Positions 6,416-29,805 of a DNA stretch of 32,376 bases are shown in pieces. The DNA comes from Candidatus Troglogloeales bacterium (GTDB lineage: Bacteria > Nitrospirota > Nitrospiria > SBBL01), in NCBI GenBank assembly GCA_005239745.1, contig SBBL01000140.1, forward strand, positions 1-32,376. The letters are read 5' to 3'. The position numbers were made by a program, and so were the translations under genes. The notes below the pieces were generated by a model. The model searched no databases, was not told the DNA's origin, and saw nothing but the letters and a program-made list of their open reading frames with translations. Position 1 is the first letter of the stretch; the number at the start of each line of letters is the position of its first letter.

Positions 6416-6422
6416 ATCTTTT

Positions 6423-6448
6423 CCAACTAAAGACACGCCGGAATGACG
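6423..6448 (-). repeat. Copy A of the CGTCATTCCGGC dispersed repeat
   Basis: On the minus strand this reads cgtcattccggc followed by gtgtctttag. It matches copies near 25794-25809 and 29790-29805 (first 12 bases identical). Against the 29.8-kb copy about four-fifths of 30 aligned bases agree. Only one half of the palindromic element is recognisable here. It fills the rimM-trmD gap and supplies the false GTG start of trmD. Confidence 0.65.
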
Positions 6449-9793: not shown

Positions 9794-10013
9794 GGACACC
9801 TCTAAAAACCGTCACGAGCGGCCCAAGTGCAAGGCGCTACTGCGCACAGGAACCGCAATGTACGCTGTGTACATGAGGATTCCGAGCACCACGCAGCACC
9901 CCAAGAGCTTGCTCTTGGGGACCCCGCGCAACGCACCGGGGCCCCCAAAACAATGTTTTAATGTTTTGGGGTGGGCAGCAATTGGGACGCGCAGTAGGTT
10001 TTTAGAGGTGCCC
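9794..10013. mobile_element. 220-bp MITE-like element with 17-bp terminal inverted repeats and GTAA target duplication
   Basis: The left end ggacacctctaaaaacc (9794-9810) is the inverted complement of the right end ggtttttagaggtgccc (9997-10013) at 16 of 17 positions. The direct repeat gtaa flanks it exactly (9790-9793 and 10014-10017), as expected for a 4-bp target-site duplication. The interior has no credible coding sequence but contains two strong hairpins (9899-9920 and 9943-9971). About 60 bases of the left end recur near 22604-22665. The size, lack of a transposase and duplication fit a miniature element moved in trans by a transposase of an insertion sequence. The IS family (IS5-like is one possibility from the 4-bp duplication) is not established. 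Together with 10018-10112 this accounts for the 323-bp gap between genes. Confidence 0.85.
9899..9971. repeat. Two tandem hairpins inside the MITE, including the TTGGGGACCCCGC motif
   Basis: Hairpin 1 has arms ccccaagagc (9899-9908) and gctcttgggg (9911-9920), perfect over 10 bp, and continues into accccgc (9921-9927). Hairpin 2 has arms ccccaaaaca (9943-9952) and tgttttgggg (9962-9971), also perfect. The 29-base unit 9899-9927 matches a unit inside glyS (24135-24163) at 24 of 29 positions. Confidence 0.75.
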
Positions 10014-14883: not shown

Positions 14884-16418
14884 CAACCCCTTCCCCATTG
14901 TCTCCCTCCCACGAAGATAAGCTCCATCAGGCGAAAAGGCTCCGTCATGTTTTTATCACGCTCTTCTTTTTGACGGTTTCTATCGGTTTAACGGTTTATT
15001 TTTGGGTAGGACAGGCAGGGGCATCCCCCACGAATATTATGGTGGTAACGTTGATGAACATCAATGCCACGCTTGTCCTATGGCTTTTACTGCTGCTGTC
15101 GCGCAATGCGATCAAATTCTACTTTGAACGCAAACAAAAACAAGCGCGCATCAAGACGAAGCTGGTGGCGGCCCTACTGAGTATCGCCCTCATTCCAACA
15201 CTGCTTTTGTCTATTGTAGCGAGTGGGCTCTTAACCCGTAGCGTTGAGAACTGGTTTTCCACTCCGGTGGAACAGGCATTGGACGATGCCCTGTATATCG
15301 CTCAAGAATACTATGAAGAAAAAAGAGGGCATGTTCCCAGAGAATTGATTGAAAAAATGGAACGCGTGGAACAGGCCGCCGCAGGATACAAACAGCGCAA
15401 GGTCTTTAAGACGCCCATTAAAATTAGCTACATGCTATCCTTCTTCGTGATTGTCTTACTGGTCATTTTTGCCGCGGTTTGGTTTGGCTTTTACTTGGCA
15501 AGAAGTATTAGCATTCCCATTCAAAAGTTGGCGGAAGGAACACAGGCGGTTGCATCCGGCGATCTTGATTTTAAGATTGACGTGCGAGTGACCGACGAGC
15601 TGGGGACCCTGGTAGATTCCTTTAACAGAATGACGACTGAGCTTAAACAGAGCCGGGCAGAATTGACGCGGGCACAGCGGTTGGCCGCATGGAAAGAAGT
15701 TGCGCAGCAAATCGCACATGACGTTAAAAATCCCTTAACCCCCATCCAATTGGCCACCGAACGACTGCGAAAAAAGTACGCGCAATGGCGTGGCACCGAT
15801 CTGCCCTCATCTGTCCAGGAAGGGTCACCTTCCCCGCAGGGATCGCAGACACAGGACTTTCACGCTATTTTTGATGAGTGTACCCAAACGATTATTCATG
15901 AGGTCGAGGGGATGAAAACGCTTGTCAATGAATTCTCTAAATTTGCCCGCATGCCGGCCCCACATCTTGTTCGACAACGGATTGAGCCGATTGTACGGGA
16001 GGTGGTCCGTCTCTATGAGGCAGGACATGAAAATATTGTGATCCAATCGCAATTTGACCCGGCCTTGCCGGAAGTAAACCTCGATCGTGAACAAATGAAG
16101 CGTGTGTTTATCAACCTCTTTGATAACGCGATTGAAGCCATGGACCATAAGGGACGGATCGTCATAACCGTTGCCCATCGCGCAGGCGACAAGCAAGTTT
16201 GGATAGATGTTGCGGATGAAGGCCGAGGCATTGCGCAGGAAGACCTGGAAGACGTCTTTCTACCTTATTTTTCAAAAAAGAAGAAAGGAACAGGGTTAGG
16301 ACTTGCGATGGTTTACCGAATGGTTTCGGATCACAATGGCCACATTTACGCAAGCCAAAGGCCCCGGAAGGGGACATGCGTTACCATTAAGTTGCCGGAA
16401 GCTAGCGCCTCGGCGTGA
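14880..16418 (+). CDS. ntrY: NtrY-type membrane histidine kinase
   Basis: A 512-residue sensor kinase. Four membrane segments (about 24-44, 53-74, 95-117, 184-206) bracket a short external region of about 65 residues. A HAMP domain follows (about 207-258). The dimerisation box LAAWKEVAQQIAHDVKNPLTPIQ carries the phospho-acceptor His280, the pattern of NtrY kinases. Catalytic boxes are N (FINLFDNAIEAM, Asn416), G1 (DEGRG, 446-450) and G2 (KGTGLGL, 469-475). No PAS domain lies between HAMP and His box, unlike many NtrY proteins. A Ser/Gln-rich insert (about 308-325) separates the two HisKA helices. The start ATG 14880 overlaps the DUF4390 stop. No NtrX-type regulator follows; the strand switches to gltBD. 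The C-terminal residues are encoded by the arm of a long hairpin. Confidence 0.85.
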   Translation: MTTPSPLSPSHEDKLHQAKRLRHVFITLFFLTVSIGLTVYFWVGQAGASPTNIMVVTLMNINATLVLWLLLLLSRNAIKFYFERKQKQARIKTKLVAALLSIALIPTLLLSIVASGLLTRSVENWFSTPVEQALDDALYIAQEYYEEKRGHVPRELIEKMERVEQAAAGYKQRKVFKTPIKISYMLSFFVIVLLVIFAAVWFGFYLARSISIPIQKLAEGTQAVASGDLDFKIDVRVTDELGTLVDSFNRMTTELKQSRAELTRAQRLAAWKEVAQQIAHDVKNPLTPIQLATERLRKKYAQWRGTDLPSSVQEGSPSPQGSQTQDFHAIFDECTQTIIHEVEGMKTLVNEFSKFARMPAPHLVRQRIEPIVREVVRLYEAGHENIVIQSQFDPALPEVNLDREQMKRVFINLFDNAIEAMDHKGRIVITVAHRAGDKQVWIDVADEGRGIAQEDLEDVFLPYFSKKKKGTGLGLAMVYRMVSDHNGHIYASQRPRKGTCVTIKLPEASASA

Positions 16419-16453
16419 AAGAGCAAAAACGCTCTCTCACGCCGAGGCGCTAG
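16402..16453. terminator. Very long hairpin over the ntrY-like stop codon
   Basis: Arms 16402-16418 and 16437-16453 are perfectly complementary over 17 bp. After one mismatch another 5 bp pair, leaving a six-base A-rich loop. The left arm includes the last codons and the TGA of the kinase gene. No T-run follows on either strand, so it may act as a processing or 3'-protection hairpin, or as a bidirectional barrier between this operon and gltD. Confidence 0.75.
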
Positions 16454-22603: not shown

Positions 22604-22665
22604 GCGGTTCCTGTGCACAGTAGCCCTTGCATTTTGGCCGCTCGTGACGGTTTTTAGAGGTGCCC
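22604..22665. mobile_element. Truncated end of the 9794-10013 MITE
   Basis: The end ggtttttagaggtgccc (22649-22665) is identical to the right terminal repeat at 9997-10013. The adjoining bases back to 22604, including gccgctcgtgacgg and gcggttcctgtgc, match the complement of 9794-9855. No second terminal repeat or target duplication is visible, so this is a solo end. It lies between gltB and the hydroxylase gene and ends four bases from the latter's stop. Confidence 0.8.
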
Positions 22666-23587: not shown

Positions 23588-25747
23588 TTAAGCGACGATC
23601 TTCGAAAAGTCTGCGAAGCGGTCAAAGAGCGAGACGATATGCGCAAGAAGGGTCAGTCGGCGGTTGCGCACCCCTTCATCCGTGTCCATCACCATCACCG
23701 TATCAAAAAAATCGGAAAGCGGTGCGTGAAGGGTGGCAAGCTGTCTGATGAGGGCATCGTACCTTTGTGCATCCCATTGTTGTTTTGCTAGATCGCGAGA
23801 CAGCATCAATACGTTATATAATTTGTGTTCCACAGATACCTCTGGAGGATAATCGCCGGATACAAGATCTACGAGCTGGAATCCATTCGGCACAATTCGA
23901 GCGGCCCGCTTAAATCCCGTCATCAATACCTTAAATTCTTCCCCGTCTACCGACTGTGTGATGGCCTGCGCAAAACGGAGGCTTATGTACGGGGAGTCAG
24001 CCTGCCGAGAGAGAACGGCATCCACAATGTCCGCCCGGAAACCGGAAGAGGCCAAATGAAACGCCAGACGTTGCTTCAAGAAGTCCAAGACGATTTTTGC
24101 ACAAAAAAAGCCGGCCTTTGGGGACCCCGCTACACCCCAAAAGCCGGCCTTTGGGGACCCCGCTTGTGCATCACATAAAAACGGATAGGAGGATATGACA
24201 AAATCAATAGCCGGTTTTAGGGAGAAACGCGCAAAAAGTGGAAGCGTACATATTTGAACCAATCCCAATCCGGCCCGCCGCAGGGCATAGGGGTCCTCGG
24301 AACCGCTGGGGATCAACCCCGCACCTAGACAACCCACAATCGTGTCGAGCTTATCAGCCACTGCCAATAGCTGTCCGATGGGGGTTTCCGGTAGCGCACC
24401 TCCTGATACGCGCGGCAAGTAGTGCTCTTCGATACCTAAAGCAACCGCTTCCGATTCCCCCTGAATGCGACCATAAACACGTCCCATCGTCCCCTGGAGC
24501 GATGGAAACTCCTGTACCACGCCCGTCAGTAGATCACTCTTGCACAACTCCGCCACACGTACGACCTCTTTAGGAGATACGGCAAGCTGATTGGCGATAA
24601 AAGTGGCCAGTGGAATCAGCCTCTCCACCTTGTCATGGAGGGTCCCAAGTCGTTCGTGGTAGGTCACCTTTCCCAACGCATCGCGTCTCTGCTCAAGTGT
24701 GATAGAAAGATCTCGATCGTAATAAAACTTCGCGTCCGCAAGTCGTGCTCGTAACACCCGTTCGTTCCCACTACGGATCGTTTCATTTGCATGTGTGTTG
24801 ATAATGGCGACAAAGCACGGTAAAAGGGCGGGCCGTCCGGCACCGGGATCGCTTGCTAGAAGGGGGAAATAGCCCTGGTGCTCTTTCATGGCGGTTGTGA
24901 TGACCTCCGGGGGAAGCTTCAAAAAATCACGATCAAAACTCCCGCGCAATGCAACCGGATACTCCACGCTAAAAACGGCCTGCCATAAGAGTGCTTCATC
25001 CTTATCCACCCAACCCTGTGCCTCGGTTGAGACACCTTGTATGCTCTTTAAGATGGCATCGTACCGCTCCTTCGGATCAATCAAAACGAAGCGCCTCTGC
25101 AACGCTTTTTTGTAAGACGCAAAGCCGCCCACGCGAAAAGTACCAGGGGAGAGAGACCTGTGTCCTTGGGAGAGCGCACCTGCCCACACCCCTGCGTAGG
25201 TCATTGGGACAATTTTTTTATCATAGAGCGCCACCATCCAACGGATGGGGCGGATAAAGCTCACGCCACTTTCCTCCCAACGCATCGTTTTGGGGAATGT
25301 TAATGCCGATAGAATATCTGGCAGTATTTTCGGCAGTAATAACGACGTCGGTTGCGCCGCCGTCTGCTTTGAAACCGCAAGATACGGCCCTTTTGCTGTT
25401 GGCAAAAGGGTAAGCTGTGCAACCTCCACGCCCTGTGATTTTGCAAAGCCCATGGCCGCTTGTGTGGGTGACCCGCTTGCGTCAAACGCAATTTTTTGAG
25501 GCGGGCCAACAATCGTCTCCGTGCATGTCTCCGTCTGACGGGATAGATGAGAGACGTGGAGGATTAAGCGACGCGGGGTTCCATACGTTAAACACCGGTC
25601 GGCGGCAATCCCATACGATGCGAATTGCTTGGCGGCGATTTCAGACAGTTGCGTAATAGCCGGTGCAATAACGCGGGCGGGCATCTCTTCAACCCCAACT
25701 TCAAACAACAGCTCAGAGGTGGTAGACGGATTCGTGTAGTGTTTCAT
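23588..25747 (-). CDS. glyS: Glycyl-tRNA synthetase beta subunit with an in-frame repeat insertion
   Basis: The beta subunit of the alpha2beta2 glycyl-tRNA synthetase; it carries the tRNA-binding HD-like and anticodon domains. The 719 residues begin with SELLFEVGVEEMPARVI, followed by TYGTPRRLILHVSHL, KTMRWEESGVSFIRPIRWMVALYD, TTAMKEHQGYFPL and DPYALRRAGLGLVQI, all family blocks. At about residues 525-548 the protein has a duplicated AGSPKAGF unit (11-residue period) between the helix SSYPFL and IVLDFLKQRL. This stretch is encoded by a tandem palindromic repeat (24102-24163), and its absence would restore a more usual length. The reading frame is intact. It lies 35 bases downstream of glyQ, as in most genomes with this enzyme type. 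Confidence 0.93.
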   Translation of the reverse strand: MKHYTNPSTTSELLFEVGVEEMPARVIAPAITQLSEIAAKQFASYGIAADRCLTYGTPRRLILHVSHLSRQTETCTETIVGPPQKIAFDASGSPTQAAMGFAKSQGVEVAQLTLLPTAKGPYLAVSKQTAAQPTSLLLPKILPDILSALTFPKTMRWEESGVSFIRPIRWMVALYDKKIVPMTYAGVWAGALSQGHRSLSPGTFRVGGFASYKKALQRRFVLIDPKERYDAILKSIQGVSTEAQGWVDKDEALLWQAVFSVEYPVALRGSFDRDFLKLPPEVITTAMKEHQGYFPLLASDPGAGRPALLPCFVAIINTHANETIRSGNERVLRARLADAKFYYDRDLSITLEQRRDALGKVTYHERLGTLHDKVERLIPLATFIANQLAVSPKEVVRVAELCKSDLLTGVVQEFPSLQGTMGRVYGRIQGESEAVALGIEEHYLPRVSGGALPETPIGQLLAVADKLDTIVGCLGAGLIPSGSEDPYALRRAGLGLVQICTLPLFARFSLKPAIDFVISSYPFLCDAQAGSPKAGFWGVAGSPKAGFFCAKIVLDFLKQRLAFHLASSGFRADIVDAVLSRQADSPYISLRFAQAITQSVDGEEFKVLMTGFKRAARIVPNGFQLVDLVSGDYPPEVSVEHKLYNVLMLSRDLAKQQWDAQRYDALIRQLATLHAPLSDFFDTVMVMDTDEGVRNRRLTLLAHIVSLFDRFADFSKIVA
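24102..24163. repeat. Two tandem copies of a palindromic repeat inserted in frame in glyS
   Basis: The 26-base unit from aaaagccggc to ttggggaccccgct occurs at 24106-24131 and again at 24139-24164, offset by 33 bases (11 codons). The second full unit (24135-24163) matches the hairpin unit at 9899-9927 in the MITE at 24 of 29 bases. Both keep the ending ttggggaccccgc and a ccccaaa/tttgggg stem. The spacing keeps the glyS frame open. Confidence 0.85.
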
Positions 25748-25761
25748 AGGTGCCCTACTGT

Positions 25762-25809
25762 CGTCATATCTAAACGGGGATTCTAAACGGGGGACATGCC
25801 GGAATGACG
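25762..25809. repeat. Copy B of the CGTCATTCCGGC dispersed repeat, at the glyQ 3' end
   Basis: The ends cgtcat (25762-25767) and atgacg (25804-25809) are inverted repeats; acatgccggaatgacg (25794-25809) is identical to copy C. Inside is a direct repeat of tctaaacgggga (25769-25780 and 25782 on). The element encodes the last residues of GlyQ (RHSGMSPV) and its stop, and fills most of the glyQ-glyS gap. Confidence 0.75.
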
Positions 25810-29717: not shown

Positions 29718-29734
29718 GGGCTATTACAATTTTT

Positions 29735-29805
29735 CGTCATACCGGTGAAAACCGGTATCCCGCGGCTTGCTCCTGGATTTCAGCTAAGAACATGCCGGAA
29801 TGACG
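29735..29805. repeat. Copy C of the CGTCATTCCGGC repeat: full 71-bp palindromic element
   Basis: Ends cgtcataccgg (29735-29745) and ccggaatgacg (29795-29805) are inverted repeats at 10 of 11 positions. Inside is a perfect hairpin with arms ataccggt (29739-29746) and accggtat (29751-29758) around a GAAA loop. The 3' part shares acatgccggaatgacg with copy B, and on the minus strand about 30 bases align with copy A. It lies wholly in the pyrH-frr gap. Confidence 0.82.

Follow-up and report, generated by a model that had tools for sequence, protein, structure and literature searches.

Tandem copies of a small palindromic repeat inside glyS of a Candidatus Troglogloeales bacterium

In all likelihood, a segment of the glyS gene of a Candidatus Troglogloeales bacterium represents two tandem copies of a small, non-autonomous and lineage-specific mobile palindrome of the REP/RPE-like kind, which was inserted into the gene and then duplicated. 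The gene lies on contig SBBL01000140.1, whose analysed stretch of 32,376 nucleotides is referred to as the window. The unit is an authentic mobile palindrome in coding DNA and belongs to a new family of untagged repeats whose general type is known. An earlier note, made from the sequence of the window, had reported the repeat in glyS and likened it to the Rickettsia palindromic elements (RPE). Its observation was confirmed to be real, and its interpretation is supported as largely right.

Results

Hairpin units in glyS

The host gene (23591..25747, minus strand) codes for the beta subunit of glycyl-tRNA synthetase, a protein of 719 residues that matches Pfam PF02092 (E=6.8e-180) and scores above the cut-off of TIGR00211. 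Two hairpin units are located at 24099..24130 (unit 1) and 24132..24163 (unit 2) of the plus strand, where they attain 38.8 and 47.3 bits, respectively, with the covariance model described below. On this strand, the unit comprises about 32 nt and reads GCACCCC-N14-GGGGNCCCCGC; the N14 core completes a stem of 10 bp around a centre of 2 nt. In the left copy, the outer arm is partly lost and reads GCACAAAAAAAG / GCACAAA. A stretch of 26 nt (24106-24131) recurs unchanged 33 nt further on (24139-24164) in head-to-tail orientation, which confirms the earlier claim of two tandem palindromic units in frame inside glyS. The units are present where they had been placed, except that the start given then, 24102, omits three bases of the full units, which begin at 24099. 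As had also been claimed, AGSPKAGF is encoded twice in the minus-strand frame: unit 2 is translated into AGSPKAGFWGV and unit 1 into AGSPKAGFF, and the pair AGSPKAGFWGV-AGSPKAGFF constitutes residues 529-550 (coding-strand reading: AGSPKAGFWGVAGSPKAGFF).

The closest matches of this GlyS are from Ca. Manganitrophus and other Ca. Troglogloeales (Nitrospirota), with 46-53% identity. In the GlyS alignment the segment is missing from 17 genomes of the same order, corresponding to a net gain of about 17 residues here; the objection that relatives might all possess a homologous segment is thereby removed. An AlphaFold2 model based on 35 aligned sequences has a mean pLDDT of 91, and values below 50 occur only at residues 530-533 and 535-540. 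These residues are located between predicted helices 510-525 and 545-567, which backs the placement between two helices proposed in the earlier note. The insert is thus predicted to be a floppy, disordered loop.

Genome-wide family and conservation of the stem

The host assembly (1.63 Mb, 145 contigs, 94% complete) represents the sole member of its family among the genomes compared. The census of units rests on pattern and covariance searches combined with a reading of the stretches around the matches. Searching the host genome for a 24-mer with up to 3 mismatches yielded 8 matches compared to none for the reversed-pattern control, at an expectation of about 0.0007 in random sequence; the likeness of the glyS and MITE copies is therefore not a coincidence. 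A spaced consensus, again with up to 3 mismatches, gave 71 matches and its reversed control 7. The covariance model, which was built from 42 distinct units, produced 84 matches at E<=0.01; as perfect palindromes were scored on both strands, some of these are duplicates, and the number of distinct units is about 70. The motif is therefore abundant elsewhere in the genome, and the objection that it might be absent there does not hold. A scan of the window against Rfam gave no match, and the exact unit consensus was not found in viral contigs.

The two arms of the stem have evolved in concert. There are 37 double-change cells compared to 9.1 in shuffled alignments (reached in 0 of 500 shuffles), and the best control with a slid partner gave 11. 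Pairing amounts to 91% and does not exceed 61% once the partner is shifted. This strong covariation also holds for the units residing in genes. It is therefore the hairpin that is maintained. The units adjoin each other with 0-5 nt between them; the unique spacers of similar length that separate the repeats of a CRISPR array were not found. As short, highly similar, multi-copy hairpin palindromes, the units are REPs in the broad sense, though part of them are not extragenic.

At one locus (L086:1982-2163), units occur on both sides of a tRNA-Met gene, 4-6 nt from its ends, and on contig C135 (L118) units are found between tRNA-Thr and tRNA-Tyr. At L301, L302 and L105:4424-4490, units lie mid-way in larger inverted repeats (flanks GGGGCACG/CGTGCCCC, CCCCGAC/GTCGGGG and CCAAGCGGTT/AACCGCTTGG), and the glyS array is flanked by TGCACAA/TTGTGCA. 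Possibly, the unit inserts into hairpin loops.

Among 296 genomes of Nitrospirota, the family was detected in one, that of the host. Phylum-wide matches outside of it were single, had unpaired cores and were rejected as chance. In Ca. Manganitrophus, a small number of related hairpins occur whose stem is longer (CACCCCAAAAAGC...GCTTTTTGGGGACCCCG); most of them lie outside recognisable genes. The gene-invading form appears to be restricted to the host lineage.

Insertions in other proteins

Corresponding insertions were identified by comparison with orthologues. DnaN has gained exactly 36 residues, equivalent to three units with a 36-nt period, in its N-terminal domain relative to 14 of 15 aligned orthologues; the fifteenth contains an unrelated insert of 7 residues at the same place. 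RecQ is longer by 21 or 22 residues (2 x 33 nt) inside its zinc-binding cysteine cluster, and this insertion is absent even from the nearest relative, which is 78% identical; it was read from the protein since MAFFT misplaced the gap in the DNA. RecG carries 23 additional residues in the region of the wedge domain when compared to orthologues from the same order. HMMER alignments with solved DnaN, RecQ and RecG are interrupted at the places of insertion. Together with GlyS, these three proteins display the in-frame insertion into unrelated protein genes that is typical of RPE.

Furthermore, single units were found in three genes on the basis of weaker alignments; their products are a UvrD-type helicase/nuclease, a family-9 glycosyltransferase and a PAS histidine kinase. 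RpoN and IspG have units as C-terminal tails and UppS has an N-terminal extension; these three were counted as terminal extensions only. The array at C65:19254 had been a candidate for an in-frame insertion in CoaX. It was rejected and counted as intergenic because the enzyme model starts at ORF residue 50, downstream of the array. A protein search of plasmids with DnaN retrieved ordinary DnaN only and is uninformative on the unit. Replication and repair genes (dnaN, recQ, recG and the UvrD-type helicase) make up 4 of the 11 hosts, with P about 0.0007 under the assumption that such genes account for 4% of the genome and for a host list that was not drawn blindly.

The recQ gene is represented by two haplotypes (contigs C19 and C31; L067:18-82 and L070:200-264), each with two units. 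They differ by a paired change from A-T to G-C, which keeps the stem and alters two amino acids (K/E and L/S), resulting in KNEFLG versus ENEFSG.

Reading frames and periods

The units are translated into dissimilar peptides: AGSPKAGFWGV in GlyS, RGPHEQVHGVQE in DnaN, GVPKNEFLGCK in RecQ, HPKSQLLGAPLT in RecG and APQKLVFGDPTL in RpoN. Coding units occur on both strands and make use of five or more of the six frames. It is therefore the DNA that is kept, and no single peptide is selected. The unit consensus lacks a stop codon in all six frames; this openness is unremarkable, as it is also seen in 17% of unit shuffles and in 55% of palindromes with shuffled arms. In each of the six clear coding arrays of two or more units, the period is 33 or 36 nt, which is divisible by three, whereas a period of 35 nt occurs in the intergenic arrays at C74, C60 and C135 and in the MITE array at C91. 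The contrast (hypergeometric P about 0.05) is weak and only suggestive because the intergenic array at C65 has a period of 33 nt and the contig-end arrays at C139 and C125 have periods of 33/36 nt.

The MITE as a host of the unit

The same unit has entered a local transposon. The MITE at 9794..10013 (plus strand, inverted repeat pair I1) is 220 nt long and one of many copies in the genome with the terminal inverted repeats GGRCACCTCTAAAAACC; its flanks show a 4-bp duplication, GTAA. Empty copies of this MITE comprise 143-145 nt and are free of any unit. In other copies, site A (GTACATG|AGGATTC) or site B is occupied by a unit of about 35 nt, or site C by a longer hairpin. In the copy of the window, sites B and C are filled. 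The unit at site B (9896..9927, plus strand) lies in non-coding DNA, scores 53.8 bits and is predicted to form a DNA hairpin of -9.4 kcal/mol (z=-4.1). Its portion at 9899-9927 agrees with the glyS unit in 24 of 29 bases, as the earlier note had stated, and that a repeat family resides both in intergenic DNA and in proteins is borne out. The hairpin at site C (9936..9977, minus strand) has the ends of the unit (CACCCCAAAACATT...TTTTGGGGGCCCCGG) and is found in only part of the MITE copies. Since MITE copies without the unit exist, the unit must have invaded the MITE and was not born from it. Its repeated entry into the MITE independently shows movement as a module.

A fragment of this MITE family is located at 22604..22665 (minus strand; pairs I1 and I16). 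The 4-bp target duplications of the family are GTAA, TAAA, TTAT and TAAC (9794-10013; L064:1928, L078:458, L104:1967, L106:2484 and L112:1943). With respect to other repeats in the window, CGTC-type REP sequences (CGTCATTCCGGC..., CGTCATACCGGTGAAAACCGGTATCC) occur at 29733-29805, 25782-25809 and 6421-6448, between genes or at a gene start. A classical tagged REP thus seems to coexist with the untagged unit. The 23-bp inverted repeat at 16402-16453 (96%, 6-nt loop) overlaps the 3' end of a histidine kinase gene, whose stop is at 16418, and lies ahead of a convergent gltD-like gene; it is probably a bidirectional terminator.

Marks of insertion and proposed mechanism

The outer flanks of the arrays are enriched in short direct repeats (sum of 89 versus 71.0 +/- 5.5 in permuted flanks, P=0.0004; P=0.005 in a stricter version). 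Examples are TGAT(A) at C139, CCCTT at recQ and GCGCA at MITE site B. The left flank is often repeated as a spacer between tandem units, such as TAAC in recG and TCTT in dnaN. The lengths of these repeats vary: only 2 nt are repeated at glyS and dnaN and none at MITE site A. A target duplication of fixed length is therefore not established.

The following course of events can be proposed. A hairpin unit of about 30 nt would have been copied into glyS, within the DNA for a surface loop, and then duplicated head-to-tail. A hairpin intermediate, single-stranded or cruciform, may be what is mobilised, and each insertion would create a short target duplication of about 3-6 nt, between which slippage could enlarge the arrays in tandem. 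The insertions would be tolerable as extra loop residues because the unit is usually stop-free and surviving coding arrays have a period of 33 or 36 nt. The added peptide is presumably neutral or nearly so.

Discussion

The properties of the unit have to be weighed against three other explanations. A REP of the GTAG or CGTC class would have the same size (20-40 nt) and would likewise be palindromic, multi-copy and clustered. Intragenic copies of such REPs are known from UvrD-type helicases and tRNA synthetases (PMC3733652), and CGTC-type repeats occur in the window. According to this explanation, the unit owes its movement to a RAYT tyrosine transposase that was lost or is not covered by the assembly. 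However, of 66 units, 5 have the GTAG tag close to their 5' end and 4 close to their 3' end, and CGTC, which also marks the end of RPE-4/RPE-6, lies close to a stem end in only 1. The search for a RAYT suggested by the earlier note found none, and no transposase could be linked to the unit: the Y1 transposase domain PF01797 (Y1_Tnp) had no match in the 94%-complete host assembly, while 5 of 14 control genomes were positive. Moreover, head-to-tail arrays are absent or under-represented in REPs (PMC3733652). We therefore regard the assignment to either tagged class as unlikely.

Selection at the protein level for a tandemly repeated peptide, such as an interaction motif, whose DNA is palindromic by coincidence, would agree with the perfectly in-frame position of the units in essential proteins and with the 26 identical nucleotides of the two glyS copies. 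As a general account, it is refuted by the reading of the unit in at least five frames on both strands, which gives unrelated peptides; stem pairing is kept while amino acids change, and many copies are non-coding. This explanation deserves hardly any credence. It is just as implausible that a common repeat was wrongly joined into genes during assembly or binning. The assembly is indeed fragmented (145 contigs), and many contigs end in or near units (C18, C19, C37, C135, C138 and C139). In nearly a dozen genes, however, the units reside inside contigs, in frame and with both gene flanks intact; the inserts of DnaN, RecQ and RecG correspond to a whole number of codons compared to orthologues, and both recQ haplotypes contain two units. 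An inserted mobile palindrome is thus our preferred explanation. More tentatively, it may be the representative of a third, untagged class of palindromic mobile repeats with a putative enzyme of its own, short target duplications, frame-keeping tandem arrays and an excess in replication and repair genes (dnaN, recQ, recG, UvrD-type helicase); this is conceivable, but we consider it somewhat doubtful.

These units show clearly how, within one lineage of an uncultured and probably free-living phylum, selfish palindromes have rewritten core proteins. Empty sites exist in proteins as well as in a local transposon, and make two questions testable: by what means such small hairpins move when no transposase is obvious, and whether junk that stays in frame is neutral when it sits in a sliding clamp, in the zinc site of RecQ or in a tRNA synthetase. 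For annotators, they are a warning that tandem repeats of 11 and 12 residues in core enzymes can be DNA parasites and not protein features.

The classic case of such palindromes is that of the RPE (Ogata et al. 2000, 2002, as summarised in PMC10969869 and PMC3733652). The likeness noticed earlier holds for the behaviour: in both systems palindromes occur between genes and in frame in unrelated, often essential genes, where they add apparently tolerated surface residues. It does not extend to the sequence, as none of the RPE sequence features tested here was found, and the name RPE is not warranted. RPE-1-type elements have about 100-150 nt (as summarised in PMC10969869 and PMC3733652), whereas the unit has about 30 nt, uses many frames and forms head-to-tail arrays, which sets it apart from the RPE descriptions. 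The occurrence outside Rickettsia, which the earlier note considered notable, is real; it is less notable in itself because intragenic palindromic repeats outside Rickettsia have already been described (PMC3733652). That survey from 2013 recorded intragenic REPs with a GTAG or CGTC tag in numerous bacteria, among them Opitutus terrae, Thauera, Thioalkalivibrio and Xanthomonas; prominent targets were replication/repair genes and tRNA synthetases. The unit shares these targets with the intragenic REPs, as well as the palindromic structure of 20-40 nt, the covariation of the stem, the clusters and the in-gene copies of 20-30 amino acids. It differs from them in that it has no tag, no RAYT was found, its arrays are head-to-tail instead of the head-to-head dimers of REPs, and it occurs in a phylum for which the survey reported none (PMC3733652). 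Like a MITE, the unit is non-autonomous, dispersed and palindromic; unlike a MITE, it seems to have neither separate terminal inverted repeats nor a constant target duplication, and it is itself a passenger inside a MITE.
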